From NCBI GenBank assembly GCA_029933005.1, contig JAOZOY010000010.1, forward strand, positions 1 through 56,791: 56,791 nucleotides of DNA. The letters run 5' to 3'. Below the pieces are notes generated by a model. That model saw only the letters and a program-made list of their open reading frames with translations. It did no database searches and had not been told where the DNA came from. A program made the position numbers and the translations under genes. Shown here in pieces: positions 19,838 through 44,471 of the stretch; the first letter of the stretch is position 1; each line of letters begins with the position of its first letter. The DNA is from Deltaproteobacteria bacterium (GTDB taxonomy: Bacteria > Desulfobacterota > Desulfobulbia > Desulfobulbales > SURF-16).

Positions 19838-19929
19838 CCCCGCAGTATCAGGATGGAATCGTTCTCCTGCAGGGTACTCAACTCTTCTGTACTACGTCTT
19901 ATGTCGGTTCCTTTTTGTATAGCCAGGCC

Positions 19930-24570: not shown

Positions 24571-24662
24571 CAAATTTTTAGATATTGACCTTGAATCACA
24601 ACCTGTGTATCGTCATTTTGTTCAAAAGCGCCCGCCTCTTAGCAGATACTATTTCAAATTGT

Positions 24663-27276: not shown

Positions 27277-27448
27277 ATTTTTAAGTTATAAGAAGAGTAA
27301 AGGGCTTTGACTTTTTGGCTAAAATATGCTTTAAACAGCCCTATAATTATTTTACAAATTTTATGCAAATATGTAAATATGCAAATATTACCTGAATTTA
27401 TGTCATTAAACCTTATGGTAAATTTGTTTTTTGGAGATATATAGCTTA

Positions 27449-29200
27449 ATGAAGGCTACGCCAACTTCTAATAATTTACCATCTAGATCCGATTTTTCTA
27501 CACTTGCTGAGGCCTTGGATTACGCCGCCCAGGGACAAACAGGATATAATTTTTATTCCGGCAGGGGCAAGCTTTATGCTGCTCTTTCCTTTAAAAAACT
27601 GCGTGATGAAGCTCGAATTCTGGCGAGAAAGTTAATCAGTATTGGTGTAATCCGTGGTTCTCGAATGGCGCTTGTGGCGAATACGCATCCCGAGTTTGTT
27701 CGCTTCTTTTTTGCCTGCCAATATGCCGGATTAATACCTGTTCCACTGCCGGCTAAGATACAGTTAAGCGGGCGCAGGGAATACATCAATCAGCTTGAAC
27801 GATTACTGTCGATCTGTCAGGCCAAACTCGCCATGGCCACTGATGACTTCATGCCATTTTTGACAGAAGCTGCAGCAAGATTGGATATACACTTTGTTGG
27901 GAATCCGCAGTCCTACGATGAAATTTCGGAATTTAAAGTCCAGCTGCAGCCTCTGGAGACAAAAGAGTTGGCCTACCTGCAATATACCTCGGGCAGTACC
28001 CGTTTCCCCCGTGGTGTGATGATAACCCAGGAAGAAGTTTTAAATAACCTGTCAGCTATCATAAATTATGGTGTCAAGATTGGACCAGGTGACCGCGCAG
28101 TATCATGGCTTCCTTTCTTTCATGATATGGGCTTGGTTGGTCTGCTTTTAACCCCGCTGGCAAGCCAGATGTCAGTTGATTTCTTAAGTACACGGGCTTT
28201 TGCAATGCGGCCTCGTTTATGGTTAAAGTTGATGTCCGATAATCGGGCAACCATATCTTTCAGCCCTCCATTCGGTTATGACTTGACTTCACGCCGGCTT
28301 CGGGATGATGACATGGGCAGTTATGATCTAAGTGCTTGGCGGGTTGCCGGTATAGGCGCTGAAATGATTCGTACCGAGATGGTTGAGAAGTTTTCAAAAT
28401 TGCTGGCACCCAGCGGTTTTGACGCGCTCGCGTTTTTGCCGTGTTATGGTATGGCAGAGTGTTCCCTGGCGATTTGTTTCGGTCCGCTTGGCAAAGGCAT
28501 GCAGACGGATCTGGTTGATGCCGATCATCTTGCAGAATATCAGAAAGCGAAACCTGTCAATCCTGTATCGGAAAGTGGCAATGACAGATCAACTAATTTT
28601 GTTATCTGCGGTGGGGTGCTGCCTGGGTATGAATTTGAAATTCGTGATTCAGAGGGTCAGACTCTCCCTGATCGGCAATGTGGTACGCTGTTTTTAAAGG
28701 GCCCAAGTGTTATGTCAGGTTACTTTGGGGATCTTAAAGCTACACGGAAAGTTCTTTCGCCGGAAGGCTGGTTGAATACCGGTGACATTGCTTACCAGAT
28801 AGGTTCTGATATTGTAATTACAGGTCGCTCTAAGGATTTGATAATTATTAATGGGCGTAATATCTGGCCCCAAGAGGTTGAATACCTGGCAGAAATTCAG
28901 CCTGAAATAAGGACTGGAGATGCAACGGCATTTTCAATTTCTAATCCCCATACTGGCGAACTTGCCGTTGTCATGGTTGAATGTCGAGAAAATGACCAGC
29001 AGAAGCGCCTTGATCTGATAAATCGATTAAATGGATTAATCCGCCAGGAATTAGGGATTGACTGTATAATTGAACTCGTTCCCCGGAACACCCTAGCCCG
29101 CACTACATCCGGCAAACCTTCCCGTCATGCAACCCGTAATTATTATCTGAAACAGTTTGCCACAGGCCAATTAGAAGACATATCTGTCGTCAATGCGTAA
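27449..29200 (+). CDS. Fatty acyl-AMP ligase / acyl-ACP synthetase
   Basis: 583 residues from ATG 27449 (GGAG 12 bases upstream). ANL adenylation enzyme: phosphate loop YTSGSTRFPRG (179-189), SWLPFFHDMGL, PCYGMAECSL, and the late hinge region LNTGDIAY with RSKDLIIINGRNIWPQEVE. Length and the SGSTRFPRGVMIT and NGRNIWPQEVE forms fit the FAAL group that hands acyl groups to carrier proteins rather than CoA. In the Caulobacter ceramide pathway such a ligase loads the dedicated ACP. An ACP and Spt gene follow on the same strand, so it likely supplies the acyl chain for sphinganine formation. Confidence 0.85.
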   Translation: MKATPTSNNLPSRSDFSTLAEALDYAAQGQTGYNFYSGRGKLYAALSFKKLRDEARILARKLISIGVIRGSRMALVANTHPEFVRFFFACQYAGLIPVPLPAKIQLSGRREYINQLERLLSICQAKLAMATDDFMPFLTEAAARLDIHFVGNPQSYDEISEFKVQLQPLETKELAYLQYTSGSTRFPRGVMITQEEVLNNLSAIINYGVKIGPGDRAVSWLPFFHDMGLVGLLLTPLASQMSVDFLSTRAFAMRPRLWLKLMSDNRATISFSPPFGYDLTSRRLRDDDMGSYDLSAWRVAGIGAEMIRTEMVEKFSKLLAPSGFDALAFLPCYGMAECSLAICFGPLGKGMQTDLVDADHLAEYQKAKPVNPVSESGNDRSTNFVICGGVLPGYEFEIRDSEGQTLPDRQCGTLFLKGPSVMSGYFGDLKATRKVLSPEGWLNTGDIAYQIGSDIVITGRSKDLIIINGRNIWPQEVEYLAEIQPEIRTGDATAFSISNPHTGELAVVMVECRENDQQKRLDLINRLNGLIRQELGIDCIIELVPRNTLARTTSGKPSRHATRNYYLKQFATGQLEDISVVNA

Positions 29201-29292: not shown

Positions 29293-30246
29293 GTGAGCAC
29301 TAAAATTAAATCTATGTCTCGTACGGTTGTAATAACTGGAGCGACGGGATTCATCGGCGGTATGTTAGTCAACCGGTTGGCATCAACCGATTGGCATATT
29401 CGGGCACTGGTTCGTGCCGCTTCACTCGGTAAACGTTCGAAGGATGTTGAACCGGAGTGGGTTACTGGTGACCTCGGAGACAGGGAAAGTCTTAAACGGC
29501 TCGTTGCCGGAGCAGATGCAATTGTGCACTGTGCCGGTGCTGTTCGCGGCGCCAGCCAGAAAGATTTTGACCGTATTAATGTTGGTGGCGTAGCTCGATT
29601 GGTGCAGGTCGCAGCAGCACAGAATCCGAAGCCGCGTTTTTTGTTGTTATCTTCTCTGGCTGCCCGGGAACCACATCTGTCGTTTTATGCAGCAAGCAAA
29701 CGAAATGGTGAAAAGGCACTGGTATCACACTCGGGCAATATGTTTTGGGACGTCTTTCGGCCTCCTGCAGTTTACGGGCCGGGAGACCGTGAAATGCTGC
29801 CACTTTTTCAATGGATGTTCAGAGGGATTGCACCATTGATCGGATCGGACCAGAATCGTCTTTCACTTCTTTATGTTGGGGACTTGGCTGATGCAATCAT
29901 TTCCTGGTTGGCTGACGGCAAAAAAAACCAACGGGTCTATGAGTTGCATGATGGACATCGAGGCGGTTATTCTTGGCAGGAGATCATCGATATTGTCGAA
30001 TGTCTGAACGGCAAATCTGTTTTTCGGGCAAATATTCCTGTATCTTTTGTAAAACTGGTTGCATCGGTTAACCTTATGGCGGCAAGAATTTTTGGTGGCT
30101 CGCCAATGCTGACTCCTGGAAAGGTCAGAGAATTGCTTCATGCGAACTGGGTCGCAGATAACGATCAATTGCGCAGCGAAACCGGTTGGATTCCAAAGGT
30201 GTTACTGGAAGAAGGGTTGCGGCAAACGTTCGGATCTCAGATGTAA
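29293..30246 (+). CDS. NAD-dependent epimerase-type ceramide reductase candidate (CerR-like)
   Basis: 317 residues from GTG 29293 (ATG 29314 is an alternative). Extended short-chain dehydrogenase: GATGFIGG nucleotide loop at 16-23, the catalytic pair Y132-x3-K136 in SFYAASKRNGE, and RPPAVYGPGD downstream. CerR of Caulobacter, which reduces the 3-keto group in bacterial ceramide synthesis, belongs to this superfamily and lies beside spt and the ACP gene, as here. Sequence alone would also allow a sugar epimerase; the assignment rests on order (ligase, reductase, ACP, Spt). Confidence 0.75.
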   Translation: MSTKIKSMSRTVVITGATGFIGGMLVNRLASTDWHIRALVRAASLGKRSKDVEPEWVTGDLGDRESLKRLVAGADAIVHCAGAVRGASQKDFDRINVGGVARLVQVAAAQNPKPRFLLLSSLAAREPHLSFYAASKRNGEKALVSHSGNMFWDVFRPPAVYGPGDREMLPLFQWMFRGIAPLIGSDQNRLSLLYVGDLADAIISWLADGKKNQRVYELHDGHRGGYSWQEIIDIVECLNGKSVFRANIPVSFVKLVASVNLMAARIFGGSPMLTPGKVRELLHANWVADNDQLRSETGWIPKVLLEEGLRQTFGSQM

Positions 30247-30329
30247 AAGTTGTTCATCTAAAATTAAAACAGAAAATGGGCGAAGATGGAGTGCAGCTGA
30301 ACAGTTACTCAAAAAGGAATGTAAATCAC

Positions 30330-30581
30330 ATGTCAACAAACGAAGATGTATTGCAGCAGATTATCGTTATACTGAAATCGATAGTTGGGGAAAATATCAA
30401 GGATATTTCTGTACAGACGGACCTGGTGAATGATTTGGGACTTGATTCCCTGAAGGTCATGGAGATTCTTGAACTCGTGGAAGATCACTTTGACATTTCG
30501 ATACCAATTAATATACTACCGGGAGTTCGCACTGTAGGAGACCTGGTTGTCGGAATCAAAAAAATAATTGAAAATGAGTAA
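30330..30581 (+). CDS. Acyl carrier protein for sphingolipid synthesis
   Basis: 83 residues from ATG 30330. The frame is open upstream to 30186, but that part overlaps the reductase gene and lacks carrier-protein features. The phosphopantetheine serine is S40 in NDLGLDSLKVMEI, and helices II and III (EILELVEDHFDISIP, RTVGDLVVGIKKII) are typical. AAGGA lies 11 bases upstream. A stand-alone ACP between the reductase and spt, with 2 bases to the next ATG, matches the dedicated ACP of bacterial ceramide clusters, which delivers acyl chains to Spt. Confidence 0.88.
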   Translation: MSTNEDVLQQIIVILKSIVGENIKDISVQTDLVNDLGLDSLKVMEILELVEDHFDISIPINILPGVRTVGDLVVGIKKIIENE

Positions 30582-30583
30582 CA

Positions 30584-31768
30584 ATGGCTATTTTTGATAA
30601 ATTCAAACCGTTGGCTGAAGCACGCCAGGAGATGGAGGAAAGCTACAACGATTTTTTCAACATCGTTATGGAGGATATTTCTTCAACAACCGAAGCTGTT
30701 GTAAATGGCCGCAAAGTTATTCTCGCCGGCACGAACAATTATTTAGGTTTGACATTTAACAAAGAATGTATTCGAGCATCATGTCTGGCTGTTGAGAAAG
30801 AGGGCACCGGTACAACAGGTTCACGGATGGCTAATGGCACTTTCTCTGGGCATGTTGCATTGGAAAATGAGCTGTCAGCTTTTTTCGATCGCAGCCATAC
30901 CATTGTGTTTTCAACAGGTTATGTGGCCAACTTAGCAATACTGTCAACCCTCGTCGGACCCGGAGAAGTGATTCTTTTAGATGCTGATTGTCATGCCAGT
31001 ATCTATGATGGATGCAGGCTGGGGGGCGCTGAAGTTATCCGATTCCACCATAATGATATCGGTGATCTGGAAAAGCGTTTGCGACGACTTGAAAAAAGAA
31101 ACACCAATATCTTGATTGTTGTCGAGGGACTCTACAGTATGATGGGCGACAGGGCGCCATTGGCTGATATTGCCTCCCTGAAAAATAAATACAGGGCATA
31201 TCTGGTTGTGGATGAAGCTCATTCCCTTGGTGTTCTGGGAAAGAATGGTCGTGGATTAGCTGAAGAAGCTGGTGTTGAGGAGTCCGTTGATTTTGTTATT
31301 GGCACTTTCAGTAAAAGTCTTGGTGCGATTGGCGGTTTCTGCTCCAGTAACCATCCTGAATTAAATCTTGTTCGTTACGCGAGCAGGCCTTATATTTTTA
31401 CCGCCTCTTCATCTCCTTCAACTATTGCATCCACCCGTACAGCCTTGCGGATTATGCAGGAAAAGCCGGAGTTGCAGCATCGATTGTGGGATAATGCCAA
31501 TTTGTTATATAAGCGTATGAAAGGGCTGGATCTAAACGTTGGGCCGGAAGCAGGGCCCATTATCGCCATTCGCTATAGTAACGTAGAAGACGCGTTTGGG
31601 ATGTGGAACGGCCTTTTAAAACTTGGTATTTATGTAAACATGGTGCTGCCGCCGGCCACGCCTGATGGCGGTGCACTTCTGCGCTGTAGCCTCAGCGCTG
31701 CGCTTTCAACTGAACAGGTTGAGAAAATAGGCGACGCTTTCGCTCTCCTGAATGCTGAATACTCGTAA
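30584..31768 (+). CDS. spt: Serine palmitoyltransferase
   Basis: 394 residues, alpha-oxoamine synthase family (fold type I PLP). The PLP lysine is K244 in GTFSKSLGAIGGF, the cofactor acid is D210 in VDEAHSLGVLG with H213, and the ring-stacking His is H137 in DADCHASIYDG. TGTTGSRMANGTFSGH carries the substrate-binding stretch. Relatives are KBL (glycine) and BioF (alanine); location directly after a dedicated ACP and beside bCerS identifies Spt, which joins serine and an acyl thioester to form 3-ketosphinganine. The stop TAA (31766-31768) lies within MITE A3: before that insertion the reading frame would have run on for seven codons (TCA GGC CGG and so on) to a TAA. Confidence 0.88.
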   Translation: MAIFDKFKPLAEARQEMEESYNDFFNIVMEDISSTTEAVVNGRKVILAGTNNYLGLTFNKECIRASCLAVEKEGTGTTGSRMANGTFSGHVALENELSAFFDRSHTIVFSTGYVANLAILSTLVGPGEVILLDADCHASIYDGCRLGGAEVIRFHHNDIGDLEKRLRRLEKRNTNILIVVEGLYSMMGDRAPLADIASLKNKYRAYLVVDEAHSLGVLGKNGRGLAEEAGVEESVDFVIGTFSKSLGAIGGFCSSNHPELNLVRYASRPYIFTASSSPSTIASTRTALRIMQEKPELQHRLWDNANLLYKRMKGLDLNVGPEAGPIIAIRYSNVEDAFGMWNGLLKLGIYVNMVLPPATPDGGALLRCSLSAALSTEQVEKIGDAFALLNAEYS

Positions 31769-32059: not shown

Positions 32060-33772
32060 ATGCGTTTAATTATTACCTTCTTTAAACGGTATCCGCTCCA
32101 AAGCATTGTTACCCTTACAGCCATGCTTTTTGCCGGTATTGCAGAGGGGTTTGGCTTTGCGATGCTGCTGCCGATGCTGGGACTGGCGATTAACAGTCCT
32201 GCTGGAGCGGGCATATCCACTTCACAGTCCACTTCCACCCTTCAGCAATTAATAGCTGATTTTTTTGCAGTCGTTGGCGTGACCCCGACAATAGGCTTAT
32301 TGCTCACAATTTTTGTGGTGAGTATTTTACTGAAAGCCATCCTCGTTCTGCTGGCCAATAAAAGGATAGGGTACATGGTTGCCCAAGTGGCAACCGACCT
32401 TCGCCTCGCTCTCATTCGTGCCCTGTTTGCTACTCGATGGCAATATTATGTCCATCAGCCCATCGGCAGGTTTACCAACGCTTTTGCCACGGAGGCCACC
32501 AGGTCGGCGAGTGCGTATTTATTTGCTATCCGCGTGCTGGCCCGGCTTTTACATGCGCTTGTATATACTTCGGTAGCTCTGATGCTGGCCTGGGAGGAAA
32601 CCCTTATTACCCTTGGTGCCGGAATTGTCATACTCTATGCACTGCGCCATTTAGTTACCAAGGCGAAAAAGGCCGGCAAACGCCAGACTAAGCTTTTAAG
32701 ATCCCTCCTTGCCCTGTTAACGGATATCTTGCAGTCCATAAAACCGCTGAAGGCCATGGCCCGCGAAAACATGGCTGATCTGGTTCTGCAAGAAAAAACA
32801 ATAAAACTGAATAAGGCTTTACGGAAACAGGTATTCAGCAAGGAAGCACTGAAGGCATTACAAGAGCCCCTGATTACCATTTTCTTTGCCATTGGACTCT
32901 ATGTGGCGATGATTTGCTGGGAGATACCTCTGGCAACTGTAATAATTATGGCTGTTATGTTGGTGAAAATACTAAAAACATTGCAAAAGGCCCAGAAAGA
33001 TCACCAGTCCATGGTTATCGCTGAAAGTGCCTACTGGTCTTTATGGTCTAAAATTAAAGAGACTGAAAACGAGCAGGAAGAATCCCTTGGCACACTTGAA
33101 CCTAGATTTAATGACTCAATTCGCCTGCAGGGAGTTAGTTTTTCATATGAGCAAAAGCCCGTCTTGAAAAATGTATCCTTAATTTTTCCCAAGGGGTCAT
33201 TTTCGGCGATCATTGGCCCCTCCGGTGCGGGAAAGACCACTGTCGCTGACTTGATCACCGGTCTCCTGTTGCCCTGGAAAGGCCAGGTGTGGATTGATGA
33301 AATGCAACTGGCCGAGGTCGACATTAAGGCCTGGCGACAAATGATAGGGTATGTGCCCCAGGAAAAAATGCTTTTGCATGATACTGTGCGTGTTAATGTG
33401 ACTCTTGGCGACTCCAGGTTCACCGATAGTGATGTTGAAAATGCTCTGCGTGATTCGGGGGCCTGGGATTTTATCTCTGAAATGTCTGATGGCATTGATA
33501 CCATCGTGGGTGAGCGCGGAAGTCGCTTTTCCGGGGGACAGCGTCAGCGTATTACAATTGCCAGGGCACTGGTGCATAAACCACAACTGTTGATCCTGGA
33601 TGAAGCAACCAGTGCACTTGATCCTGCCAGCGAAGCTGATATTTGTCAGGCTCTGAGTCAGTTGAGAGGAAAGCTTACAATTCTGGCAATTTCACATCAA
33701 ACAGCCATTCTGGATGCAGCAGACAGAGCATATCGACTGGAAGGCGGCATTGCTCAGCTTATGGATAAATAA
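32060..33772 (+). CDS. MsbA-like ABC exporter in sphingolipid locus
   Basis: 570 residues, an ABC exporter half-transporter. Six membrane spans lie within about residues 15-300, then an ATPase domain with Walker A GPSGAGKTT, signature FSGGQRQR, Walker B LLILDEATSALD and switch ISHQTA (His in SHQ). It is clearly distinct from msbA at 16491 and follows spt. A role as flippase for ceramide or its phospho-derivative is plausible but inferred from place only; polysaccharide or lipid export are alternatives. No ribosome site is evident before ATG 32060. Confidence 0.8.
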   Translation: MRLIITFFKRYPLQSIVTLTAMLFAGIAEGFGFAMLLPMLGLAINSPAGAGISTSQSTSTLQQLIADFFAVVGVTPTIGLLLTIFVVSILLKAILVLLANKRIGYMVAQVATDLRLALIRALFATRWQYYVHQPIGRFTNAFATEATRSASAYLFAIRVLARLLHALVYTSVALMLAWEETLITLGAGIVILYALRHLVTKAKKAGKRQTKLLRSLLALLTDILQSIKPLKAMARENMADLVLQEKTIKLNKALRKQVFSKEALKALQEPLITIFFAIGLYVAMICWEIPLATVIIMAVMLVKILKTLQKAQKDHQSMVIAESAYWSLWSKIKETENEQEESLGTLEPRFNDSIRLQGVSFSYEQKPVLKNVSLIFPKGSFSAIIGPSGAGKTTVADLITGLLLPWKGQVWIDEMQLAEVDIKAWRQMIGYVPQEKMLLHDTVRVNVTLGDSRFTDSDVENALRDSGAWDFISEMSDGIDTIVGERGSRFSGGQRQRITIARALVHKPQLLILDEATSALDPASEADICQALSQLRGKLTILAISHQTAILDAADRAYRLEGGIAQLMDK

Positions 33773-33913: not shown

Positions 33914-34003
33914 CAAAGAAGTTTCTGAATTTTTTGCCACAAATGACACGAAAATAATTCTTAAGGGACTAAATATGATTTTGTTTAGTTGAGTAGGGAG
34001 TGC

Positions 34004-34705
34004 ATGAAGGTTAGTGGAGAGTTTGTTTTTTTGGGGGCTGGGAGATATTTCATAGCCCTTGATATGCCGCAAAGAGAGTCTGTGATTAAATTCCTAAGAC
34101 CTGATGGGCCATTGACTGTCCGGCAAAAAGGGTTGCGGGGGTGGTTGCTTGATCATTTTCTCAGAGCAAAACTCATCAAGAAGGCCGCTATGGCTGGTCG
34201 GGTTTTTCGGATGCTTTATCAGTCAGAGACTATCGATATTTCTCTTTGTTTTCCCGAAACAAAGATTGTCGACGAAGTCGATGTTCGTTTTTCATGGGAA
34301 GGTCAGACTAAACGGTATCAGGGTTCTGCCTACATTCAACGCCGGGTCGAAGTATTTGGTTATGATGCACCCCTGGATTCGTTTAATTGGGATGTAATTA
34401 TCGAAATCCAGCACTATCTGTGGGGGGCTGGCGTTGGTCTGGGAAGCGGTGCGGAGACCTGGGGACCAAAAAACTGGTGTCGCACGAAACAAGATAAGGT
34501 CAGGCTGGCTGATCTCAGCAGCTTGACCCAGGATAAAAAACGTGTAGGTAAACGTCTGAACAGTGCAATACGTCAAAAGCGCCGAAAGCGACTGGAACGA
34601 TTCCAGCCGGTTCGGTGCCGGGAGCACATTGATCCATACCTTGCATATATTGGGGAATATCTTAACCAAGAATCGCTTAACAAACTATGGAGAGCGGGAT
34701 TCTAA
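34004..34705 (+). CDS. Unrecognised basic protein, possibly kinase-fold
   Basis: 233 residues from ATG 34004 (AGGGAG directly upstream). No family is recognised with certainty. Visible features are FLGAGRYFIALDMPQRESVIKFL, resembling a kinase glycine loop with the beta-3 Lys, a central WDVIIEIQHYLWGAGVGLG, the conserved-looking AETWGPKNW and RLADLSSL (an Asp where kinases carry the metal-binding Asp), and a C-terminus rich in Arg and Lys. No HGD-type catalytic loop is present, so if it is a kinase fold it is degenerate. No signal or membrane segment. It lies between the exporter and the CDP-alcohol phosphotransferase of the sphingolipid locus. Confidence 0.55.
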   Translation: MKVSGEFVFLGAGRYFIALDMPQRESVIKFLRPDGPLTVRQKGLRGWLLDHFLRAKLIKKAAMAGRVFRMLYQSETIDISLCFPETKIVDEVDVRFSWEGQTKRYQGSAYIQRRVEVFGYDAPLDSFNWDVIIEIQHYLWGAGVGLGSGAETWGPKNWCRTKQDKVRLADLSSLTQDKKRVGKRLNSAIRQKRRKRLERFQPVRCREHIDPYLAYIGEYLNQESLNKLWRAGF

Positions 34706-34915: not shown

Positions 34916-36121
34916 ATGGGTTTATATATTTATTTCTTACATGAATGCCCTGTGCAAATCTGGGGTCTTACATCGCAACAACGGATAGAGAAGGTATTAA
35001 AAGGAACGGCTGAAAACTGTACAGCACAGGAATTAAACAACCTGTCAGACAGCGACTCTGTTCTTATCCTGCGTGGGGACTATCTGTTCGACGACCGGTT
35101 GATCAAACATCTGGTCGCAGCGCAGAATATTACCATTCATCTCAACAACGGCCAACAACAGGTGACTGTTGCCGCCCATGTTCCGGCAGGACTTGCCCGG
35201 CAAGCCATTGAGTTTATGGAAGACAAGACTCATGCCGGTTCTCTGCCCGGCGTACAGAACCAGGCTCTGGCCACCATATCCATTTCCTTCCTGGAAAAAT
35301 TACGTAAATCCGAACCACCCTTCGTGCTGCCAATTTCAGTAGAAAAAAAACAAGCCCTCGAGAAACGTCTTTTTGATTGGGCTTACAAGGGAATCACCGA
35401 TCTGGTGACAAAATGGGCCTGGCCGTACCCGGCCCGTTGGGTTGTCGGACATTGTGTACGCTTCAATATCCGGCCTAACTATGTCACCCTGTTCGGCCTG
35501 CTGTTGGTTATATTCGCCGGGATTTCTTTTGCCAATGGCCAGTTCGGCAGGGGGCTGCTGGCGGGATGGCTGATGACCTTTCTGGACACTGTGGACGGCA
35601 AACTGGCTCGTGTTACCGTTACATCAAGTCAATTCGGTCATTATTTTGATCATCTTATCGACTTAATCCATCCTCCCATCTGGTATATCCTCTGGGGTCT
35701 CGGTTTAACCGCTGCCCAGCTTTCCGGCTTGGGTTTTTCATTGAGTACCCTCTTGTATGCAATGATGATCGGTTATGTGGTTGGTCGTTTAGTCGAAGGA
35801 TCATTTCAGTGGTTTTTGGGCAGGTTCGGTATATTCTGCTGGCGGCCAACTGATTCCTATTTCAGGCTGATAACCGCCAGGCGCAATCCAAACATGATTT
35901 TTCTGACCATAAGCTATCTTATGGGGCGACCGGAACTGGGGTTGCTGGCCGTTGTTTTTTGGACGGTTGCAACTACGATCTTTCTTCTTTTACGATTAAT
36001 CCAGGCCGGCTACGTACGATCCCGCCAAGGACCCCTCAGGTCATGGCTGGCAGATGCAGACAAACCCAAATATAACAAATCCCTTGCCGTGCGTCTGTTC
36101 ACCCGGCATATTATCGGTTAA
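34916..36121 (+). CDS. CDP-alcohol phosphotransferase, sphingolipid head-group candidate
   Basis: 401 residues. The C-terminal half (about 160-390) is a membrane CDP-alcohol phosphotransferase with the full catalytic motif: D224, D227-G228, A231-R232, G241, D245 and D249 (D-x2-DG-x2-AR-x8-G-x3-D-x3-D). The N-terminal 140 residues look like a worn nucleotidyltransferase domain (SVLILRGDYLFDDRLIKHL recalls the NGD metal site), a layout known from inositol-phosphate enzymes. The product would be a phospho-alcohol lipid or its precursor. With the lipid kinase and Tam41-like gene behind it, the three-gene set resembles, from memory, the Caulobacter cpgABC genes for ceramide phosphoglycerate. Confidence 0.8.
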   Translation: MGLYIYFLHECPVQIWGLTSQQRIEKVLKGTAENCTAQELNNLSDSDSVLILRGDYLFDDRLIKHLVAAQNITIHLNNGQQQVTVAAHVPAGLARQAIEFMEDKTHAGSLPGVQNQALATISISFLEKLRKSEPPFVLPISVEKKQALEKRLFDWAYKGITDLVTKWAWPYPARWVVGHCVRFNIRPNYVTLFGLLLVIFAGISFANGQFGRGLLAGWLMTFLDTVDGKLARVTVTSSQFGHYFDHLIDLIHPPIWYILWGLGLTAAQLSGLGFSLSTLLYAMMIGYVVGRLVEGSFQWFLGRFGIFCWRPTDSYFRLITARRNPNMIFLTISYLMGRPELGLLAVVFWTVATTIFLLLRLIQAGYVRSRQGPLRSWLADADKPKYNKSLAVRLFTRHIIG

Positions 36122-36131
36122 TCTTTAATTT

Positions 36132-37118
36132 ATGGCACCAGTAATTTCGGAACCTGGTCAGGGACCACGTATTGGAGTACTCACCAACCCCCTGAGCGGC
36201 AAAAATCGCAAAGGACAGGAAACTATTTCCCAAACGATCAGTGAATATCCACGGGCAATTCAGCATAATGTCAAAACACCCCGGGATGTCCACGATGCAC
36301 TGATTGATTTTGCCACACATAAGGTTGATCTGGTCGTTATAAGCGGCGGCGACGGGACCGTCCAGGCGGTTTTGACCACCCTGTTCCATCACAAGCCTTT
36401 TACAACTCAGCCACAACTCATTGTATTAGAAGCCGGTACGACTAATATGATTGCCGGAGATGTTGGTGTATTAGGGAACCAGAACAAAGCATTGCATCGT
36501 TTGTTTCAATGGGCTCAAACCGGCAGCGCTAAAGTCACGAAAATACAAAGGCCGATTATTCGTCTGCAGGTTCCCGGGCATGAAGTGAAATGCGGCATGT
36601 TTTTCGGAGCTGCTGCCATCAGCCAGGGCATTCAATATTACCACAAAAATCTGCACAACAAAGGTCTACGGGGCTTTCCGGGGATATGTTTTACCCTGGC
36701 CAGATACTTATGGGCCATCATCCGCACACAACGCCAATCTGCGACAGCTACCAGAATAGAGTTTGAGTTGAACAGGGAACCGCTGCAAAAAGGAGATTTT
36801 CTGTTATTATTTGTCAGCACGCTGGAACGGCTGTTTTTCGGCATGCGCCCCTTTTGGGGGAATGAAAATGGATCGCTGCGATTTACAGCAATCCGGTCAC
36901 CAGCCAAATACCTGCTGCGACTCCTGCCTTTTTTATCAAGAGGCCGTCGGACCAGCAAAGGAACACAGGAAAATGGCTACTATTCCCATAATGTGGATGA
37001 GGTAAAGCTTTTTCTTGACAGCCCCGTTGCCTTGGACGGTGAAATTTATAGACCTCAATCCATCCAGGAACCAACCGTGCTGCAATGCGGCGGCATAGCA
37101 ACTTTTTTGCGCTTATAA
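36132..37118 (+). CDS. DAGK/LcbK-family lipid kinase, ceramide kinase candidate
   Basis: 328 residues. Diacylglycerol kinase catalytic domain: VLTNPLSGKNRKG (nucleotide loop) at about 17-28 and GGDGT at 72-76, followed by LEAGTTNMIAGD, the expected GTxN segment. The C-terminal beta-sandwich domain runs to the end. Family members phosphorylate diacylglycerol, long-chain bases or ceramide; CpgB of Caulobacter is a ceramide kinase of this clan. Position next to ceramide genes makes ceramide the likely substrate. It follows the CDP-alcohol gene by 10 bases and precedes the nucleotidyltransferase by 2, so the three form one operon. Confidence 0.85.
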   Translation: MAPVISEPGQGPRIGVLTNPLSGKNRKGQETISQTISEYPRAIQHNVKTPRDVHDALIDFATHKVDLVVISGGDGTVQAVLTTLFHHKPFTTQPQLIVLEAGTTNMIAGDVGVLGNQNKALHRLFQWAQTGSAKVTKIQRPIIRLQVPGHEVKCGMFFGAAAISQGIQYYHKNLHNKGLRGFPGICFTLARYLWAIIRTQRQSATATRIEFELNREPLQKGDFLLLFVSTLERLFFGMRPFWGNENGSLRFTAIRSPAKYLLRLLPFLSRGRRTSKGTQENGYYSHNVDEVKLFLDSPVALDGEIYRPQSIQEPTVLQCGGIATFLRL

Positions 37119-37120
37119 TA

Positions 37121-38074
37121 ATGCAGATACCGACAGAACTTCTTAATGTTTTACAGCAAAATTCTTCCAGAGATCCATCACCGGCAGTCAGTCTCCTGGT
37201 TGAAGAGATCCTGAGCCGCTACGGTGAAGCTGTGCGGGCCATACTCTTTTATGGATCCTGCCTGCATAAAGGGGAAGACCTCGATGGACTTTTTGATTTG
37301 TACGTGCTGGTTGACACGTATGATGCTGTCAATAAAAATGCCATGCTGGCTGCATTGAACAAGTTGCTGCCGCCAAATGTATTTTATCTGGAAGTCCCCT
37401 GTAATGGGCAAACTGTCAGGGCTAAATATGCCATATTATCTCTGAGCGATTTACAAAAAGGTACATCCTGCAACTGGTTTCATTCTTATCTGTGGGCACG
37501 ATTTTGTCAGCCCACCGTAATGGTTTACGTAGGAGACGAAAAAATTAAAAATCAGGTAAATCTTGCCTTTGCCCAGGCCGTTATTACCTTTGTAACCAAG
37601 GTGTTGCCGCGTTTGAAGCCGAGATTCACTATCCGTGAGTTGTGGCAGAAAGGACTCGAGTTGAGCTATAAGGCTGAATTCCGTCCGGAGCGCCCGGATC
37701 AACAGGTCCGGTTATACGATGCAACGCCAGATTATTTTAACGATATTACCTGTATGGCATTGAGTAGTTCGCCCTACCAGGTCAATGTTGACATCGAGGA
37801 AAAGACCACCATTTGTCACGCAGAAATTCCGGACCCGAGACGCTTGTTCTCCCGCATGACCTGGGCAATTCGAATTATACAGGGTAAAGTTCTTTCTGTT
37901 CTGAGGCTTGTTAAAGGGACGCTTACATTTGAGGGCGGGGTTGATTATATTCTCTGGAAGATTAAACGGCATTCAGGTGTGACCATGGAGGCAAGCCCCT
38001 TTCTGAGAAGACACCCTCTTCTAGCCATGTGTGTTTTATCCTGGCGCTTATATCGGAGTGGAGGGGTTCAATAA
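37121..38074 (+). CDS. Tam41-like nucleotidyltransferase-fold protein
   Basis: 317 residues from ATG 37121, 2 bases after the kinase stop; the frame is open back to 37085. AILFYGSCLHKGEDLDGLFDLYVLVD has the GS-x10-12-D-x-(D) layout of the nucleotidyltransferase fold. The length and a Lys/Arg-rich C-terminal helix region recall Tam41, the CDP-diacylglycerol synthase of mitochondria. If so it could form CDP-ceramide from ceramide 1-phosphate, or a CDP-head group. The second catalytic Asp appears as Tyr (DLY), so activity is not certain. No membrane span is obvious. Confidence 0.55.
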   Translation: MQIPTELLNVLQQNSSRDPSPAVSLLVEEILSRYGEAVRAILFYGSCLHKGEDLDGLFDLYVLVDTYDAVNKNAMLAALNKLLPPNVFYLEVPCNGQTVRAKYAILSLSDLQKGTSCNWFHSYLWARFCQPTVMVYVGDEKIKNQVNLAFAQAVITFVTKVLPRLKPRFTIRELWQKGLELSYKAEFRPERPDQQVRLYDATPDYFNDITCMALSSSPYQVNVDIEEKTTICHAEIPDPRRLFSRMTWAIRIIQGKVLSVLRLVKGTLTFEGGVDYILWKIKRHSGVTMEASPFLRRHPLLAMCVLSWRLYRSGGVQ

Positions 38075-38362: not shown

Positions 38363-39418
38363 ATGACAAAATCTTCTTTAAATGAAATTCACTTCGGCGG
38401 CCCTGATATGGAGCCGGGAAAATTACGGAATCTCCTGGCTGAACGTGTTGCGTCGATGCCGGCCGGAGGAGCGATTGACTGGGTCACCTATTATTTCAGA
38501 GATCGGCGACTGGCAGAGTTATTGCTCAAAGCGAACCGCAGGGGTGTTAATGTTTCCGTGACATTGGAAGGCAGTCCGCGTACATCGTATGCCAATGATG
38601 CCGTGATCGGCATGCTGGCCGGACCGAAAGGGCTGGGTAAAGGATTACGTACCCTGACATTGCCGGACATCCCAAGCCTTTTAGGGCGAACTTGGAAGCC
38701 CCATCTGCATGAAAAGATTTACTGTTTTTCCCACCCGAAACCAGTAGCATTTATCGGGTCTTTTAACCCGTCAGGGGACAGTCCGGAGGAAGACCAGACG
38801 ATTATCAATGAGATTGGCGATCAGGATCGGGGCCATAATGTACTTGTCGGCCTTTATGACCCACCCCTGGTAAAATGTTTAGTGGACCATGCCAGGTGGA
38901 TCAAGCGAACACAGAGTTCCCTGTTTTATCGGTTTTCCTTCTTGGCCAATAAAACGTTTAAAGGAAAAGATACCGAAATCCATTTCTGGCCGAGATCAAG
39001 TCCGCATCCGGTAAGAAAATTTTTGAGTCGAATTGCTCCCGGAGCCCGCATCCGAATAGCCGCCTCTCACCTCAAAGGCAGATCCATGGCAAAGGCATTG
39101 ATAAAAATCGCCCGTCAGGGGGCTCAGGTAGAAGTGTTGGCAGAGCCGACGAATAGACGGGTCCCGGCAGAGATTGAAAAAATGATAAAAAATGCAGGCA
39201 TTTCATTGCAAAGAGTCATCCTTGCCGACGGACTGCCAATGCATAACAAGTTTATTCTTGCGGAAAAAGATGACCGCCAATGGGTTATATTCGGCAGCTT
39301 TAACTGGACAACACGTTCATACTGGCTGAACCATGAGGTTGGAGCAATCTCCACCAATCATGAACTTTTCAATGCCTTTGCCGGACGTTGGGAAGCATTA
39401 AAGGCCCAGGCTGCATAA
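38363..39418 (+). CDS. Phospholipase D-like protein
   Basis: 351 residues with two PLD half-motifs. First, HLHEKIYCF (H116-x-K118) with IGSFNPSGDS; second, MHNKFILAE (His-x-Lys) with IFGSFNWTTRS. The Asp of the canonical HKD is not present in the usual place, but the GSFN after each HxK is. No signal peptide or membrane span is clear, so it may act in the cytoplasm. PLD-family enzymes include cardiolipin synthases and phosphotransferases, so a transfer reaction on the sphingolipid or its head group is possible. A cytoplasmic nuclease cannot be excluded. Confidence 0.75.
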   Translation: MTKSSLNEIHFGGPDMEPGKLRNLLAERVASMPAGGAIDWVTYYFRDRRLAELLLKANRRGVNVSVTLEGSPRTSYANDAVIGMLAGPKGLGKGLRTLTLPDIPSLLGRTWKPHLHEKIYCFSHPKPVAFIGSFNPSGDSPEEDQTIINEIGDQDRGHNVLVGLYDPPLVKCLVDHARWIKRTQSSLFYRFSFLANKTFKGKDTEIHFWPRSSPHPVRKFLSRIAPGARIRIAASHLKGRSMAKALIKIARQGAQVEVLAEPTNRRVPAEIEKMIKNAGISLQRVILADGLPMHNKFILAEKDDRQWVIFGSFNWTTRSYWLNHEVGAISTNHELFNAFAGRWEALKAQAA

Positions 39419-39434
39419 TGAACCAGGTATTTTG

Positions 39435-40802
39435 ATGAATAAAACGGCTTCAACATTGATCATCCCGGTGGAATCCCAGGTGCGTGAGATGGATGCCAAA
39501 CTTCTGTTATCCTGCGTTGCCGCTGAGCGGGGATTTCCGGTTATCATGGGCTCCCGGGCCTTTATCCATTTCAAGGTTGATGCAATCCCTCGGGGGGTTT
39601 ACCTGGCCAAGAGCATGCGTAAAATAAGCATTCGAATGTTCTCCATATTACGCAAACTTGGGCATGAGATTGTTGCCTGGGATGAGGAAGGGCTTTTGCG
39701 GGAACCCGACCAGGAGTATTACCGGTGGCGGCTGTCGCCTTACACCGTGGCACAGGTATCCCATCTCTTCGCTTGGGGTGAAGATGATGCGCAAACCTTG
39801 CGGAACTATCCTGATTATCCCGGCACCCCGATCCATATTACCGGCAATCCACGGATCGATATGATGCGCAAGGAGTTACGCGACTATTACCTGCCCCAGG
39901 TCAATGAGATCCGTGAACGGTTCGGGGATTTTGTCCTGGTGAATACAAATTTCAGCAAGGTAAATCATTTTTTCCCTGAGCTCAGTCCATTAAAGCAGGT
40001 ATTGGAAGCGGAAAAGTCAGAAAAAGTCAATCAGTTTGATTCTGCATGGGGACGTCACAAGCTGCAATTGTTTGAAGCTTTTCAAATGATGCTGCCGGAG
40101 CTTTGCAGGGCGCTGCCCGATCTTACTGTGGTTGTCCGACCCCATCCCGCCGAAAATCACGCTCCGTGGCTGGCCGTTGCCAAGCGCTGCGACAACATCA
40201 GGGTAGCCAATGACGGCAGTGTTCTGCCTTGGCTGATGGCCTCTAAAGTGCTCATCGCCAACAGCTGCACGACCCAGGTGGAAGCTGCGGTTCTGGATAG
40301 ACCTACATTAAGCTATCAACCGGTAGCATCTGAAAATATCGATCACCAGCTGCCCAATGCCGTCAGCCACCGGACATTTTCTTGTGATGAATTGTGCAGC
40401 AAGGCGATTGCCATCGTCAGAGGTGATCTCGATCCACTGGACTACGCTGTACGCCGCGCCAGGCTCGATCAGCATATTGCAGCGCTGGACGGCAGACTTG
40501 CAGCCGACCGGATTGTCGATGTCCTGAAAACTGCTGGGTACCATGAAAAACAGCCGCCGACATCATCATTGCCTGATTACCTGAGCGGCTGGATCCATAA
40601 CCGAATGCGGACAGCAAAAAAACATGTTAACATGAGGCGGTCCGGTCACCGCAACAATCTTGCCTATCATACACACCGCTGGCCAGATATCTCTGTTAAT
40701 GAGGTTGAAAGACGGATTGCGCGACTGGGTAATATGCTGGACAGGTTTAAGAACATTCGGGTTACCCAGCACTCCAGGCACATTTTCCGAATTACCGGAT
40801 AG
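39435..40802 (+). CDS. Surface carbohydrate biosynthesis protein (SurfCarb type)
   Basis: 455 residues of a poorly characterised family often named surface carbohydrate biosynthesis protein. Visible features are LIIPVESQVREMDAKLLLSCVAAERGF, GNPRIDMMR, FVLVNTNFSKVNHF, VVVRPHPAENHAPW and LIANSCTTQVEAAVLDRPTLSYQP. The RPHP and S-C-T-T-x-x-E motifs are those of CDP/CMP-sugar glycosyltransferase-like GT-B domains (compare capsule and Kdo transferases). It probably transfers the nonulosonate made by the next four genes. It starts 16 bases after the PLD gene, in the same direction, so the sphingolipid and sugar modules may be cotranscribed. Confidence 0.75.
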   Translation: MNKTASTLIIPVESQVREMDAKLLLSCVAAERGFPVIMGSRAFIHFKVDAIPRGVYLAKSMRKISIRMFSILRKLGHEIVAWDEEGLLREPDQEYYRWRLSPYTVAQVSHLFAWGEDDAQTLRNYPDYPGTPIHITGNPRIDMMRKELRDYYLPQVNEIRERFGDFVLVNTNFSKVNHFFPELSPLKQVLEAEKSEKVNQFDSAWGRHKLQLFEAFQMMLPELCRALPDLTVVVRPHPAENHAPWLAVAKRCDNIRVANDGSVLPWLMASKVLIANSCTTQVEAAVLDRPTLSYQPVASENIDHQLPNAVSHRTFSCDELCSKAIAIVRGDLDPLDYAVRRARLDQHIAALDGRLAADRIVDVLKTAGYHEKQPPTSSLPDYLSGWIHNRMRTAKKHVNMRRSGHRNNLAYHTHRWPDISVNEVERRIARLGNMLDRFKNIRVTQHSRHIFRITG

Positions 40803-40834
40803 GAGTTCTACTCCCCAAAAAAGGAGATACGTTA

Positions 40835-41938
40835 GTGTATAAAGTAAAAATATACGGAGCCGGATCTATCGGCAACCACTTGGCCCATGCCTGTCGATCC
40901 AAAGGCTGGAGCGTGGTTATTTGCGATATTGATCAGCAGGCTCTGGATAGAACGCAACAGGACATATACCCTGCCCGGTACGGAGAGTGGGATTCTGAGA
41001 TTCAGCTTGTAACGGTAGACAATCTGCCGGATGAGGACTTTGATCTGGCGATCATCGGCACACCGCCGGATTTTCACATGGGTCTGGCAAAACAAATCCT
41101 GCAAAGCAGGCCGCCCAAAGTCCTGCTGATCGAAAAGCCGCTGTGCACCCCTTCACTGGAAGGTGCCCAGGAAATTGTTGATTTAAAAAACAGTACAGGT
41201 ACTTTTGTGGCAGTTGGGTACAACCACGTTCTGACCCAGAATTCGACGCGCGCCGAGGAAATATTAAATCAAGGTATAATCGGTCAGCCAATTACCATCA
41301 GTGCCAGATTTCGCGAGCACTGGGGCGGTATTTTCGGGGCACATCCCTGGCTCAAGGGCCCCCAGGACACCTACCTCGGTTACTATGAACAGGGCGGTGG
41401 CGCCAGTGGCGAACATTCCCACGCCATGAACATCTGGCAGCATTTTGCACACCTCGTCGGCTTTGGCAGGATTTCCAAAGTTTCGGCAACAATGGATATG
41501 ATCGACAACGGTAAGGTTAAATATGACCAACTCTGCCTGCTTAATGTCACGACGGAATCCGGATTTGTCGGTGACATTGCTCAGGATGTGGTCACTGAAC
41601 CGGCTCAAAAGGCTGTTCGCATCCAGGGCAGCAAAGGGTTCGTGGAATGGTTTGTTAATATTGACGATGGGCATGACGCCATTCGCTACTGGGATGGCGA
41701 AAAAGAAATCCAGACTGAAAATATTGCCAAATCACGGCCGGATGATTTCACAGGTGAGATTGAACATATCAGTGAAATCCTTGATGGCAGTTTTACGGGA
41801 GACTCCCCTATAGCCATAGAAAGGGGGCTTGATACCATGCTGCTGCTTGCCGCAGCTCATACATCTCATCAGCATGGCAGGGTGGTTAAAATAAATTACG
41901 AAAAAGGCTACAGGCTTGATGCCATTGAAATACTCTAA
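40835..41938 (+). CDS. Gfo/Idh/MocA family oxidoreductase
   Basis: 367 residues from GTG 40835 with AGGAG about 9 bases upstream. The N-terminal Rossmann domain has YGAGSIGNHLAHAC and ICDID. The family Lys lies in EKPLCTPSL (EKP motif, near residue 98), and the C-terminal domain has GGGASGEHSHAMN (catalytic His region). Enzymes of this group oxidise or epimerise nucleotide sugars or free sugars. It sits between the SurfCarb and NeuB-type genes, so it probably makes or modifies the precursor for the nonulosonate. Confidence 0.85.
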   Translation: MYKVKIYGAGSIGNHLAHACRSKGWSVVICDIDQQALDRTQQDIYPARYGEWDSEIQLVTVDNLPDEDFDLAIIGTPPDFHMGLAKQILQSRPPKVLLIEKPLCTPSLEGAQEIVDLKNSTGTFVAVGYNHVLTQNSTRAEEILNQGIIGQPITISARFREHWGGIFGAHPWLKGPQDTYLGYYEQGGGASGEHSHAMNIWQHFAHLVGFGRISKVSATMDMIDNGKVKYDQLCLLNVTTESGFVGDIAQDVVTEPAQKAVRIQGSKGFVEWFVNIDDGHDAIRYWDGEKEIQTENIAKSRPDDFTGEIEHISEILDGSFTGDSPIAIERGLDTMLLLAAAHTSHQHGRVVKINYEKGYRLDAIEIL

Positions 41939-42019
41939 CTCAGCTTTTCTGGTTACGGTATGATGCTGAATTACTGTGATTTTAAGCTAACATTTGTATG
42001 AAATGTGAAGGGAGTGATT

Positions 42020-43543
42020 ATGCAGGATTTTGACTTTAATGGTCTGTTTACATATGACTTGGCAAATAACCATCAGGGTGACATGGAGCATGCCCTGAAT
42101 ATCATTAAAGCATTTGGTGACGTCAACCGCGATGCTGGTGTCCGGGGGGCACTGAAATTTCAGTTTCGTCAACTGGATACATTTATCCATCCGGATTACA
42201 AAAAGAAAAAGGATGTAAAGCATATTCCCAGATTTATGGAAACAGCCCTGACCAAGAAAGACTATGCCAAGCTGACGAAGGCCATTATCGATAGCAATAT
42301 GTACACCATGTGTACTCCGTTTGATGAAGAGTCGGTAGATATTATCCAGGAATTGGGCATAGAAATTATCAAGGTGGCCAGCTGTTCAGCATTGGACAGG
42401 CCCCTCCTCGAAAGGATCGCTGAAACAAATTATCCCATTGTCGCCTCGACAGCAGGCCTGAGCATGACCCAGATAGACAGGCTGGTCAGCTTCTTTGAAA
42501 CCAGGAATGTGCATTTTGCATTGATGCATTGTGTTGCCGTTTATCCGACACCAAGCGACAAGTTGAATTTAAACCAGATAGACTTGCTGAAAGAACGATT
42601 TCCGGGCATCCCCATCGGTTTTTCTACCCACGAAGACCCGGATGACTGCAATCCCATTGTTATTGCCTGTGCCAAAGGTGCAACACTGTTTGAGCGGCAT
42701 GTGGGGATGAATACGAAAAAATACAAGTTGAACACCTACTCTTCTGATCCCGAACAGACTGCCAAGTGGCTGGTCGCCTACAACGAGACCATAAAATCCT
42801 GCGGCGGTGAGAATCGCAGCCCGGCATCGCCTGAAGAGATAGCATCACTACGATCCTTAATGCGCGGCGTATACGTTAAAAAGCAGATTAAGAAAGGTCA
42901 AAAAATCACCCGGGATAAGGTCTATTTTGCTATGCCTCTGCAGGACGGTCAGCTGGTCAGCGGTGACTGGTTCGAAGGCATGAAGGCGGATAAGGATTAT
43001 GGTGCTGATAAACCCATTAGTGAAGCAGTTGCCAGTTCACCATTACCAGCAGAAGAGATCATCTATCGCATCATGCTGCAGGTCAAAGGCATGCTCAATG
43101 AGGCCAGAATTGAAATCGGCCGTAAAAGTTCGGTCGAACTTTCCCATCACTACGGCCTGGAACACTTCCGAGAATTCGGGGCGATCATTATCGATGTCAT
43201 TAACCGGGAGTACTGCAAGAAACTGATCATTCAACTGCCGAGGCAGAAGCACCCCTATCATTATCACAAGGTGAAGGAAGAAACGTTCCAGCTGCTGCAC
43301 GGCGACCTTGAGGTTGAGCTGGATGGGAACCGTATTAAGCCCCTGCCGGGCGATACCATTCTTGTCAAACCCGGTGAATGGCATAAGTTTCACACCCTCG
43401 GCGGGGCGATTTTTGAAGAAATTTCCACCACTCATTATAATGACGATTCGTTTTATGAGGATGAGCGGATCGCACGGCTGCCCCGTGAAATAAGAAAAAC
43501 AGTTATTCCGAATTTGAGTGTTGTTGAAAAAAATCAGGCTTAG
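42020..43543 (+). CDS. NeuB-type synthase with C-terminal cupin domain
   Basis: 507 residues from ATG 42020 (GGGAG 5 bases upstream; a GTG at 42005 is in frame). The N-terminal TIM barrel (about 1-270) is NeuB-like: FTYDLANNHQGDMEHAL, LKFQFRQLDTF, CTPFDEESV, IIKVASCSALDRPLLE, HCVAVYPTP, IGFSTHED and FERHVGMN. A short SAF-like domain follows (about 280-340). Residues about 370-495 form a cupin resembling D-lyxose isomerase (HPYHYHKVKEETFQLLHGDLEVELDG, PGDTILVKPGEWHKFHT), with two His and one Glu of the metal site. NeuB enzymes add phosphoenolpyruvate to an aldose to make a 2-keto-3-deoxy sugar acid. The fusion suggests that isomerisation and condensation are linked. Confidence 0.87.
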   Translation: MQDFDFNGLFTYDLANNHQGDMEHALNIIKAFGDVNRDAGVRGALKFQFRQLDTFIHPDYKKKKDVKHIPRFMETALTKKDYAKLTKAIIDSNMYTMCTPFDEESVDIIQELGIEIIKVASCSALDRPLLERIAETNYPIVASTAGLSMTQIDRLVSFFETRNVHFALMHCVAVYPTPSDKLNLNQIDLLKERFPGIPIGFSTHEDPDDCNPIVIACAKGATLFERHVGMNTKKYKLNTYSSDPEQTAKWLVAYNETIKSCGGENRSPASPEEIASLRSLMRGVYVKKQIKKGQKITRDKVYFAMPLQDGQLVSGDWFEGMKADKDYGADKPISEAVASSPLPAEEIIYRIMLQVKGMLNEARIEIGRKSSVELSHHYGLEHFREFGAIIIDVINREYCKKLIIQLPRQKHPYHYHKVKEETFQLLHGDLEVELDGNRIKPLPGDTILVKPGEWHKFHTLGGAIFEEISTTHYNDDSFYEDERIARLPREIRKTVIPNLSVVEKNQA

Positions 43544-43720
43544 GGTCTGTTACGAAATAAGCATTACATTTATGCATCTCTGCTTCGGGTCATATTTGAA
43601 CGATTCTCAATCACAAAATACTCGACGTAGCCCTGCACGCCTGCGGTTTTGTTCAATCGGCTCGTCTAAATCTAACCCAAATCAGACCGCCTAAACGTAA
43701 CACTTATTTTGTAATAGCCC
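43543..43720. mobile_element. Family F MITE-like element
   Basis: 178 bp with inverted ends GGGTCTGTTACGAAATAAG and (right, complemented) GGGCTATTACAAAATAAG, flanked by a 4-bp direct repeat CTTA (43539-43542 and 43721-43724). The ends recall IS5-group termini. Its first G completes the TAG stop of the NeuB-type gene; without it the stop would be TAA, so the protein is unchanged. It fills the gap 43544-43747. Confidence 0.65.
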
Positions 43721-43747
43721 CTTAATTGATCGAATGACAAGGAACAT

Positions 43748-44371
43748 ATGGCGATAAAAGTAATTGTCTTTGACTTTGATGGAACCCTGATTGAGTCAAA
43801 CCAGCTTAAATATGATGGGTATTTTGAGCTGTTTCCTGAAGAGGGTCGTTTTACAGATGTCATTCGTTCCGTCTTGAGGGAAATGTATGAAGAGAGTCGC
43901 TATGTTATTATAGAGACGATTCTCAGGCGACTTAATGAGACCACACCTGAAATTCTGCAGAAGCGATGTTCTGAGCTGGCTGAGCAATACAATGATATTG
44001 TCTTGGCCGGCGCCAAGACATGCCCGGAAAAAGAAGGGGCCAAAGCCCTGCTTGATTTACTGGAAGAAAAGTACAGGGTGTACCTGAGCTCAACCACTCC
44101 CGACACCCCCTTAAAGGAAATTATTTCCTTTAGAAACTGGGAGAGCTATTTTGAAGATGTAATCGGATTTCCCCATAAAAAGGATCAGACCCTGCAACGA
44201 ATAATGCGGTTTGAGAATGTGCAGCCCAATGAAATTGTAGTTGTCGGCGACGGAAAATCCGATCGCCAATCGGCTGCCGCAATCGGCTGTTTTTTTATTC
44301 ATGTCACAGATAATTTCAAATTGGCGGAAATTGATTCCATGATCGACGGATTGGGAAACCAAGTCGTTTAA
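43748..44371 (+). CDS. HAD-family phosphatase
   Basis: 207 residues with the four HAD motifs: VFDFDGTLIES (Asp-x-Asp nucleophile), LSSTTPD (motif II), K in FPHKKDQTL (motif III) and VVGDGKSDRQSAAAIG (motif IV). The cap is of the helical phosphoglycolate phosphatase type. In this position (NeuB, HAD, NeuA) it would remove the phosphate from the 9-phosphate (or equivalent) sugar acid made by the NeuB-type enzyme, as KdsC does for Kdo. Start at ATG 43748 with AAGGA 4-5 bases upstream. Confidence 0.85.
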   Translation: MAIKVIVFDFDGTLIESNQLKYDGYFELFPEEGRFTDVIRSVLREMYEESRYVIIETILRRLNETTPEILQKRCSELAEQYNDIVLAGAKTCPEKEGAKALLDLLEEKYRVYLSSTTPDTPLKEIISFRNWESYFEDVIGFPHKKDQTLQRIMRFENVQPNEIVVVGDGKSDRQSAAAIGCFFIHVTDNFKLAEIDSMIDGLGNQVV

Positions 44372-44471
44372 AGGACGTAATTTTTCAGGTAGGGCCACTA
44401 AATTGGCCTAACCACGGTTCTGAAACTTCAGGAGAGTTCCTGAACAGTAACTGAAGGGCAATGTGTAATAT

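Follow-up and report, generated by a model that had tools for sequence, protein, structure and literature searches.

Introduction

The closest described counterpart of the gene cluster considered here is the cpg pathway of Caulobacter crescentus, which leads to the phosphosphingolipids ceramide phosphoglycerate (CPG) and CPG2. The cluster lies in the window (the whole stretch of DNA that was analysed, 56,791 nucleotides; NCBI GenBank assembly GCA_029933005.1, contig JAOZOY010000010.1) of a Desulfobulbaceae bacterium, and its element in question is a three-gene operon at positions 34916-38074.

In C. crescentus the CC_1159 gene product is CpgA with a cytidine diphosphate (CDP)-alcohol motif, the CC_1160 gene product is the ceramide kinase CpgB, and the CC_1161 gene product is CpgC, which carries an InterPro CDP-diacylglycerol (DAG) synthase domain, all three being encoded beside ceramide genes (PMC11324152, PMC12275187, PMC10331486). 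The pathway also has the nucleotidyltransferases (NTases) CC_1152 (CpgD) and CC_1153, the phosphoesterase CC_1158, and LptF2/LptG2 (PMC11324152, PMC12275187, PMC10331486). Ceramide phosphorylation was shown for the Caulobacter CpgB enzyme (PMC10331486), while CpgD is characterized as a cytidine triphosphate (CTP):phosphoglycerate cytidylyltransferase with solved structures (PMC12275187, PMC13228409). Genetically, CC_1160 and CC_1161 are required for CPG while CC_1159 is dispensable, formation of CPG2 depends on CC_1159, CC_1152, and CC_1153, and the loss of CC_1153 blocks CPG2 and raises CPG (PMC11324152).

Two structurally described groups are related to the operon products. Tam41 enzymes retain one of the three acidic residues of NTases (PMC11646218). 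AF2299 is a CDP-alcohol phosphotransferase with an N-terminal cytidylyltransferase-like domain and CDP-glycerol as donor, and six-helix enzymes of this type usually use soluble acceptors (PMC4634129).

Orthology with the Caulobacter Pathway

The operon consists of three plus-strand open reading frames (ORFs; 34916-36121, 36132-37118, and 37121-38074) with intergenic gaps of 10 and 2 bases. These coordinates, together with Pfam matches to CDP-OH_P_transf (2.7e-10), DAGK_cat (1.1e-14), and Tam41_Mmp37 (PF09139; 2.7e-5, a marginal 24.1 bits against the cut-off of 24), confirm the three coupled genes inside a ceramide locus that were described in an earlier note on this DNA. The third ORF is open back to the ATG at 37085, and its homologues start at 37121. 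The operon is surrounded by genuine ceramide genes, of which the serine palmitoyltransferase at 30584 exceeds the NCBIfam cut-off, and the ceramide backbone genes linked to it (spt, cerR, acpR, aasR, and cerS) are all present. Dozens of genomes from several phyla carry the same gene set, which is well past chance.

By sequence comparison the three products are orthologues of Caulobacter CpgA, CpgB, and CpgC, with the cpgA-cpgB-cpgC order kept. The comparison locus came from a search of the order to which a Caulobacterales match belongs, and it was recognized as the C. crescentus cpg locus because both published cpgB cloning primers (PMC10331486) match it with 0 mismatches at both gene ends. 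Its gene order (flippase, faal, cerR, acp, spt, cpgC, cpgB, cpgA, phosphoesterase, HIT, lptF, lptG, GNAT, CC_1153, and CpgD) is the published CC_1166-CC_1152 order (PMC11324152). Between the window and this locus twelve genes, including LptG and LptF, are reciprocal best matches, with identities of 39% for CpgA (residues 14-379), 28% for CpgB, 33% for CpgC, 48% for CpgD, and 57% for Spt. CpgA (401 amino acids) has the intact motif DTVDGKLAR-x8-GHYFDHLID, whereas CpgB is a member of the DAGK-type family with a GGDG motif (GGDGT at residue 72), assigned as orthologue by reciprocal best match and predicted to be a ceramide kinase.

The cpgD orthologue (23112-23873, minus strand) is predicted to encode a CTP:phosphoglycerate cytidylyltransferase. 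Eleven published CpgD residues (G12, R16, K26, T88, N90, T93, N110, G111, D112, S170, and W201) stand at their exact numbers in the comparison locus, and ten of them are identical in the window protein, T93 being replaced by Ser; the glycerate-site residues N90, N110, and S170 are all kept. Thus, orthology of the whole pathway, with a phosphoglycerate-type ceramide lipid as its product, is very likely and close to assured on these comparisons. Since the whole pathway is orthologous, the head group is most likely phosphoglycerate (CPG/CPG2), and a sulfate reducer probably carries phosphoglycerate on ceramide. The proposal of the earlier note that the operon serves a ceramide phospho-head group is supported by this orthology within a real ceramide locus, while its description of the head group as unknown and perhaps new gives way to the match of the whole set with the CPG2 pathway.

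Predicted Structures of CpgC and CpgA

The AlphaFold model of CpgC (37121-38074; mean predicted local distance difference test score (pLDDT) of 89), computed on an alignment of 73 relatives, was compared with the Protein Data Bank (PDB) by Foldseek, where the five best matches were all Tam41 (3.8e-11 to 4.5e-9). In structure alignment Z reached 19.2 with Firmicutes Tam41 7ecd (228 residues, 3.1 A) and 17.3 with Schizosaccharomyces pombe Tam41 6ig4, the best non-Tam41 family giving 9.3. A placement of this protein outside the Tam41 fold is rejected by the predicted structure, and the Tam41-like assignment of the earlier note stood up to this check, the fold being NTase plus winged helix. A profile of 10 CpgC sequences failed to reach Tam41 in the PDB, while the profile built from 73 relatives reached 6ig2 at 7e-6, aligning YGS, D59, K102, R127, and Y183-x-x-E186-x-R188; these residues (YGS, D59, K102, R127, Y183, E186, and R188) are kept in 72-73 of the 73 relatives, D59 being the single NTase acidic residue, as in Tam41. 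Residues 238-269 form a basic helix (7 K/R, 1 D/E), which would fit membrane binding, as expected. No match was given by a PF09139 search of 14 control genomes including Caulobacter, and this reflects a limit of the model, because CpgC is present at the comparison locus.

For CpgA (34916-36121; model pLDDT 88) the nearest structure is AF2299 across the full length (Z 22.2, 316 residues). The protein combines the motif D-x2-DG-x2-AR-x8-G-x3-D-x3-D with an AF2299-like N-terminal domain (34916-35380, plus strand), in which the G.G.R nucleotide loop is missing in 39 of 39 CpgA relatives, so the active N-terminal domain with a G-x-G-x-R loop that marks IPCT-DIPPS is absent. At the same time conservation of W16, G17, R23, R53, and D55 reaches 92-100% among the relatives compared. 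A decaying NTase domain is rejected in view of this conserved residue set, and by its sequence the domain is a conserved AF2299-type one, rebuilt rather than abandoned. The earlier note had spoken of a worn nucleotidyltransferase domain: the domain is real and its loop is absent, but the word "worn" is misleading.

As a separate observation, a sister genome holds a second cpgA copy beside the metallophosphoesterase (L024:19093-20000; 78% identical to the window cpgA over residues 1-297), which the window does not have at that place. Two cpgA copies around cpgC also occur in the Nitrospirales loci L059, L062, and L067 and in locus L050.

Gene Distribution and the Proposed Pathway

The survey of 258 genomes of the window's class identified CpgC in 11, besides two spurious short matches. 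Serine palmitoyltransferase was scored above the curated cut-off, which alone separates true enzymes, since NF047599 at E 0.001 is uninformative owing to Kbl/BioF relatives. All nine genomes with such an enzyme carry CpgC, while none of the 247 CpgC-less genomes has one (Fisher 4.5e-15, kinship uncorrected). The remaining two CpgC genomes comprise one with a contig-end fragment at 378 bits and one with a completeness of 72%. Because of this co-occurrence CpgC is tied to ceramide. The genome has in addition an ordinary CdsA of its own, and linkage to ceramide rather than to DAG, as the earlier note had it, is borne out by both facts.

Co-inheritance was followed in 150 related genomes of the order to which the comparison locus belongs. 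CpgA and CpgD were each found in 22 genomes, and the two sets are identical. CpgC was found in 39, and the CC_1153-type nucleoside triphosphate (NTP) transferase, encoded at 26071 in the window, in 38 of these and nowhere else. CpgA is lacking in 17 of the 39 CpgC genomes, while every CpgA genome has CpgC, and CpgA-less clusters of this order keep CpgB beside CpgC. In other phyla, 34 longer clusters were compared, of which 22 have both CpgA and CpgD, 9 have neither, and 3 are discordant. When clusters with CpgA and clusters lacking it were scanned by motif for an additional, dedicated CDP-alcohol phosphotransferase linked to CpgC, only extra CpgA-like copies turned up. By their distribution the genes thus fall into two modules, one of CpgB, CpgC, and CC_1153 and the other of CpgD and CpgA, in partial agreement with Caulobacter genetics.

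According to the proposed scheme, CpgC as a Tam41-fold cytidylyltransferase would most likely convert ceramide 1-phosphate and CTP to CDP-ceramide, which would then be turned into CPG by a step not requiring CpgA. CpgD would form CDP-glycerate from CTP and phosphoglycerate, a reaction shown for Caulobacter and consistent with the active-site residues kept here. CpgA would use CDP-glycerate to add the second phosphoglycerate, giving CPG2, as Caulobacter genetics suggests, and LptF/LptG-like permeases would carry the product to the outer membrane. It is quite likely that the three genes form the cpgA-cpgB-cpgC operon of such a Caulobacter-type phosphosphingolipid pathway with these steps. The Tam41 fold together with the tracking of serine palmitoyltransferase makes CDP-ceramide a sensible choice, and the activation of ceramide 1-phosphate by CpgC with CTP is reasonably likely. 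The idea is not new, because an "NDP-activated ceramide" (with a nucleoside diphosphate) was already put forward (PMC11324152), while the structural and phyletic tests are original here; a search for CDP-ceramide in bacteria found no paper in the library covered.

Several points weigh against this scheme. Identity to the Caulobacter proteins reaches only 28% for CpgB and 33% for CpgC, the activities of the window proteins are predicted, and that of CpgC is a prediction for the Caulobacter enzyme as well. The six-helix CpgA, of the soluble-acceptor type, is awkward with a lipid acceptor (PMC4634129). No transferase for CDP-ceramide was seen, the CpgA-less clusters having no other nearby CDP-alcohol phosphotransferase by motif, and the CC_1153-type protein is co-inherited with CpgC even without CpgA and CpgD, yet CC_1153 loss in Caulobacter spares CPG.

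Alternative Routes

In a glycerophospholipid side route the product of 37121 would be an ordinary Tam41-type CDP-DAG synthase, and the kinase would be one for DAG. Characterized Tam41 enzymes, including the Firmicutes one, do produce CDP-DAG (PMC11646218), and DAG is also phosphorylated in vitro by Caulobacter CpgB (PMC10331486). However, CpgC is restricted to genomes with serine palmitoyltransferase, a CdsA is already at hand, and Caulobacter phosphatidic acid is unaffected by cpgB deletion (PMC10331486); on the first two grounds the CDP-DAG route was rejected, and its probability is almost negligible. The earlier note had read the three genes in series, the kinase forming ceramide 1-phosphate, the Tam41-like enzyme CDP-ceramide, and CpgA joining CDP-ceramide to a soluble alcohol, perhaps as a new head group. 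The adjacency of the genes, the Tam41 fold of CpgC, and the six-helix architecture of CpgA, usual for soluble acceptors (PMC4634129), speak for such a series. Nevertheless, Caulobacter lacking CpgA still makes CPG, while Caulobacter lacking CpgB or CpgC does not (PMC11324152), CpgA is absent from many CpgC genomes while it coincides with CpgD in all 22 cases, and AF2299, its nearest structure, uses CDP-glycerol. The division into two modules thus argues against CpgA acting on the CpgC product, which makes the series decidedly unlikely. It argues for the alternative that the same note had offered, activation of the head group by the NTP transferase at 23112 in the Caulobacter manner, which the CpgD residues and the CpgA-CpgD co-inheritance support.

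Another explanation is that CpgC itself makes CPG from ceramide 1-phosphate, either through a bound intermediate or with activated glycerate from the 26071-type NTP transferase, so that CDP-ceramide is never released. It draws on the nearly complete coincidence of CpgC with the CC_1153-type protein (38 of 39 genomes), on CpgA-less clusters that hold CpgB-CpgC and no other CDP-alcohol phosphotransferase found by motif, and on CpgB and CpgC being the only known Caulobacter requirements for CPG (PMC11324152). It remains unlikely, since CC_1153 loss raises CPG instead of abolishing it (PMC11324152) and alcohol transfer is known for no Tam41 enzyme. By analogy with the archaeal di-inositol-phosphate route, CpgD might also form CDP-glycerate that CpgA joins to (phospho)glycerate in solution. 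The resulting soluble diglycerate phosphate would be trimmed by the metallophosphoesterase, and either glycerate (CPG) or diglycerate phosphate (CPG2) would be added as a complete unit to CDP-ceramide from CpgC. Such a route is highly improbable; were it true, CPG2 would be made parallel to CPG and not from it, the two branching at CDP-ceramide, a new liponucleotide. The six-helix build of CpgA is the chief structural argument remaining for this route or for the series.

Surrounding Genes and Distribution of the Cluster

Upstream of the operon the CC_1158 metallophosphoesterase orthologue (19789-20928, plus strand; 41%, homology from about 20005, start uncertain) is followed by LptG-like (20963-22030) and LptF-like (22039-23115) permeases on the minus strand, both predicted to act in sphingolipid export. 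Further plus-strand genes encode the GNAT-type acyltransferase orthologous to the bacterial ceramide synthase CerS (CC_1154; 24585-25844; 44%), the MobA-like CC_1153 orthologue (26071-26877; 32%), the fatty acyl-AMP ligase FAAL (aasR, CC_1165; 27431-29200; 43%), the SDR reductase CerR (CC_1164; 29293-30246; 37%), the acyl carrier protein (acpR, CC_1163; 30186-30581; start uncertain), serine palmitoyltransferase (spt, CC_1162; 30584-31768), and an ABC exporter (32060-33772) that in related clusters is usually near spt. An unannotated ORF (orf33989; 33989-34705) directly precedes cpgA, and a PLD-like protein with two HxK motifs (38363-39418) directly follows cpgC; both are shared only with the same-genus sister genome (>90% identical) and absent from other cpg clusters. 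Nonulosonate-like genes come after the cluster (39432-45173), including a NeuB-cupin fusion (42005), a HAD phosphatase (43748), and a CTP_transf_3 protein (44472).

The pathway is already known, and the window is a further carrier, in Desulfobulbaceae, the published descriptions found covering Proteobacteria only. The nearest named relatives are Desulfobulbaceae metagenome assemblies (91% in CpgC), which places the window in this family or close beside it, with others in further Desulfobacterota, Nitrospirales, Thermodesulfobacteria, and Alpha- and Gammaproteobacteria. In the gammaproteobacterial clusters L075, L086, and L097 cpgC is followed by a fatty acid desaturase-like gene, with no recognizable cpgB nearby. 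The whole ceramide/cpg cluster or a large part of it also lies on plasmids (L020, L021, and L023), namely Pseudomonas pPNP1 with a class 1 integron, the Diaphorobacter IncP plasmid pDCB2 with mercury resistance, and a Roseomonas mucosa plasmid, and is therefore movable between bacteria.

Instead of an unknown head group a specific prediction is obtained, ceramide phosphoglycerate in sulfate reducers, whose sphingolipids are only now being mapped, and two cultured carriers, Desulfoprunum benzoelyticum DSM 28570 and Desulfopila aestuarii DSM 18488, were identified. The published question of the CpgC role is narrowed, the module split directing attention to CpgC and CC_1153 as the pair in the pathway still to be explained. 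If CpgC makes CDP-ceramide, this would be a liponucleotide for which the papers found have no description.

Comparison with Known Systems

The Caulobacter cpg system resembles the window in its gene set, the cpgA-cpgB-cpgC order, the reciprocal best matches, and the kept CpgD active site. The window differs in phylum, in the inverted metallophosphoesterase-LptGF-CpgD part upstream of the ceramide genes, in having no identified HIT-family gene, and in the extra, genus-specific PLD-like gene and orf33989. With the Tam41 CDP-DAG synthases (6IG2/6IG4 of S. pombe and 7ECD of Firmicutes) CpgC shares the NTase plus winged-helix fold, YGS, the single acidic D59, the K, R, and Y-x-x-[DE]-x-R motif, and the basic C-terminal helix. 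It is nevertheless only 16-19% identical to them, has its own conserved C-terminal part (W248, R251, R262, Y276, and K280), and is linked to ceramide by genome context, on which the predicted ceramide 1-phosphate substrate is based. CpgA shares with AF2299 (4O6M) and IPCT-DIPPS (4MND) the fusion of an N-terminal cytidylyltransferase-like domain with a six-helix phosphotransferase, and with AF2299, the CDP-glycerol user, also a GLT-x-x-ER-like motif; it is about 16% identical to these proteins, and its first domain, unlike that of IPCT-DIPPS, is not active.

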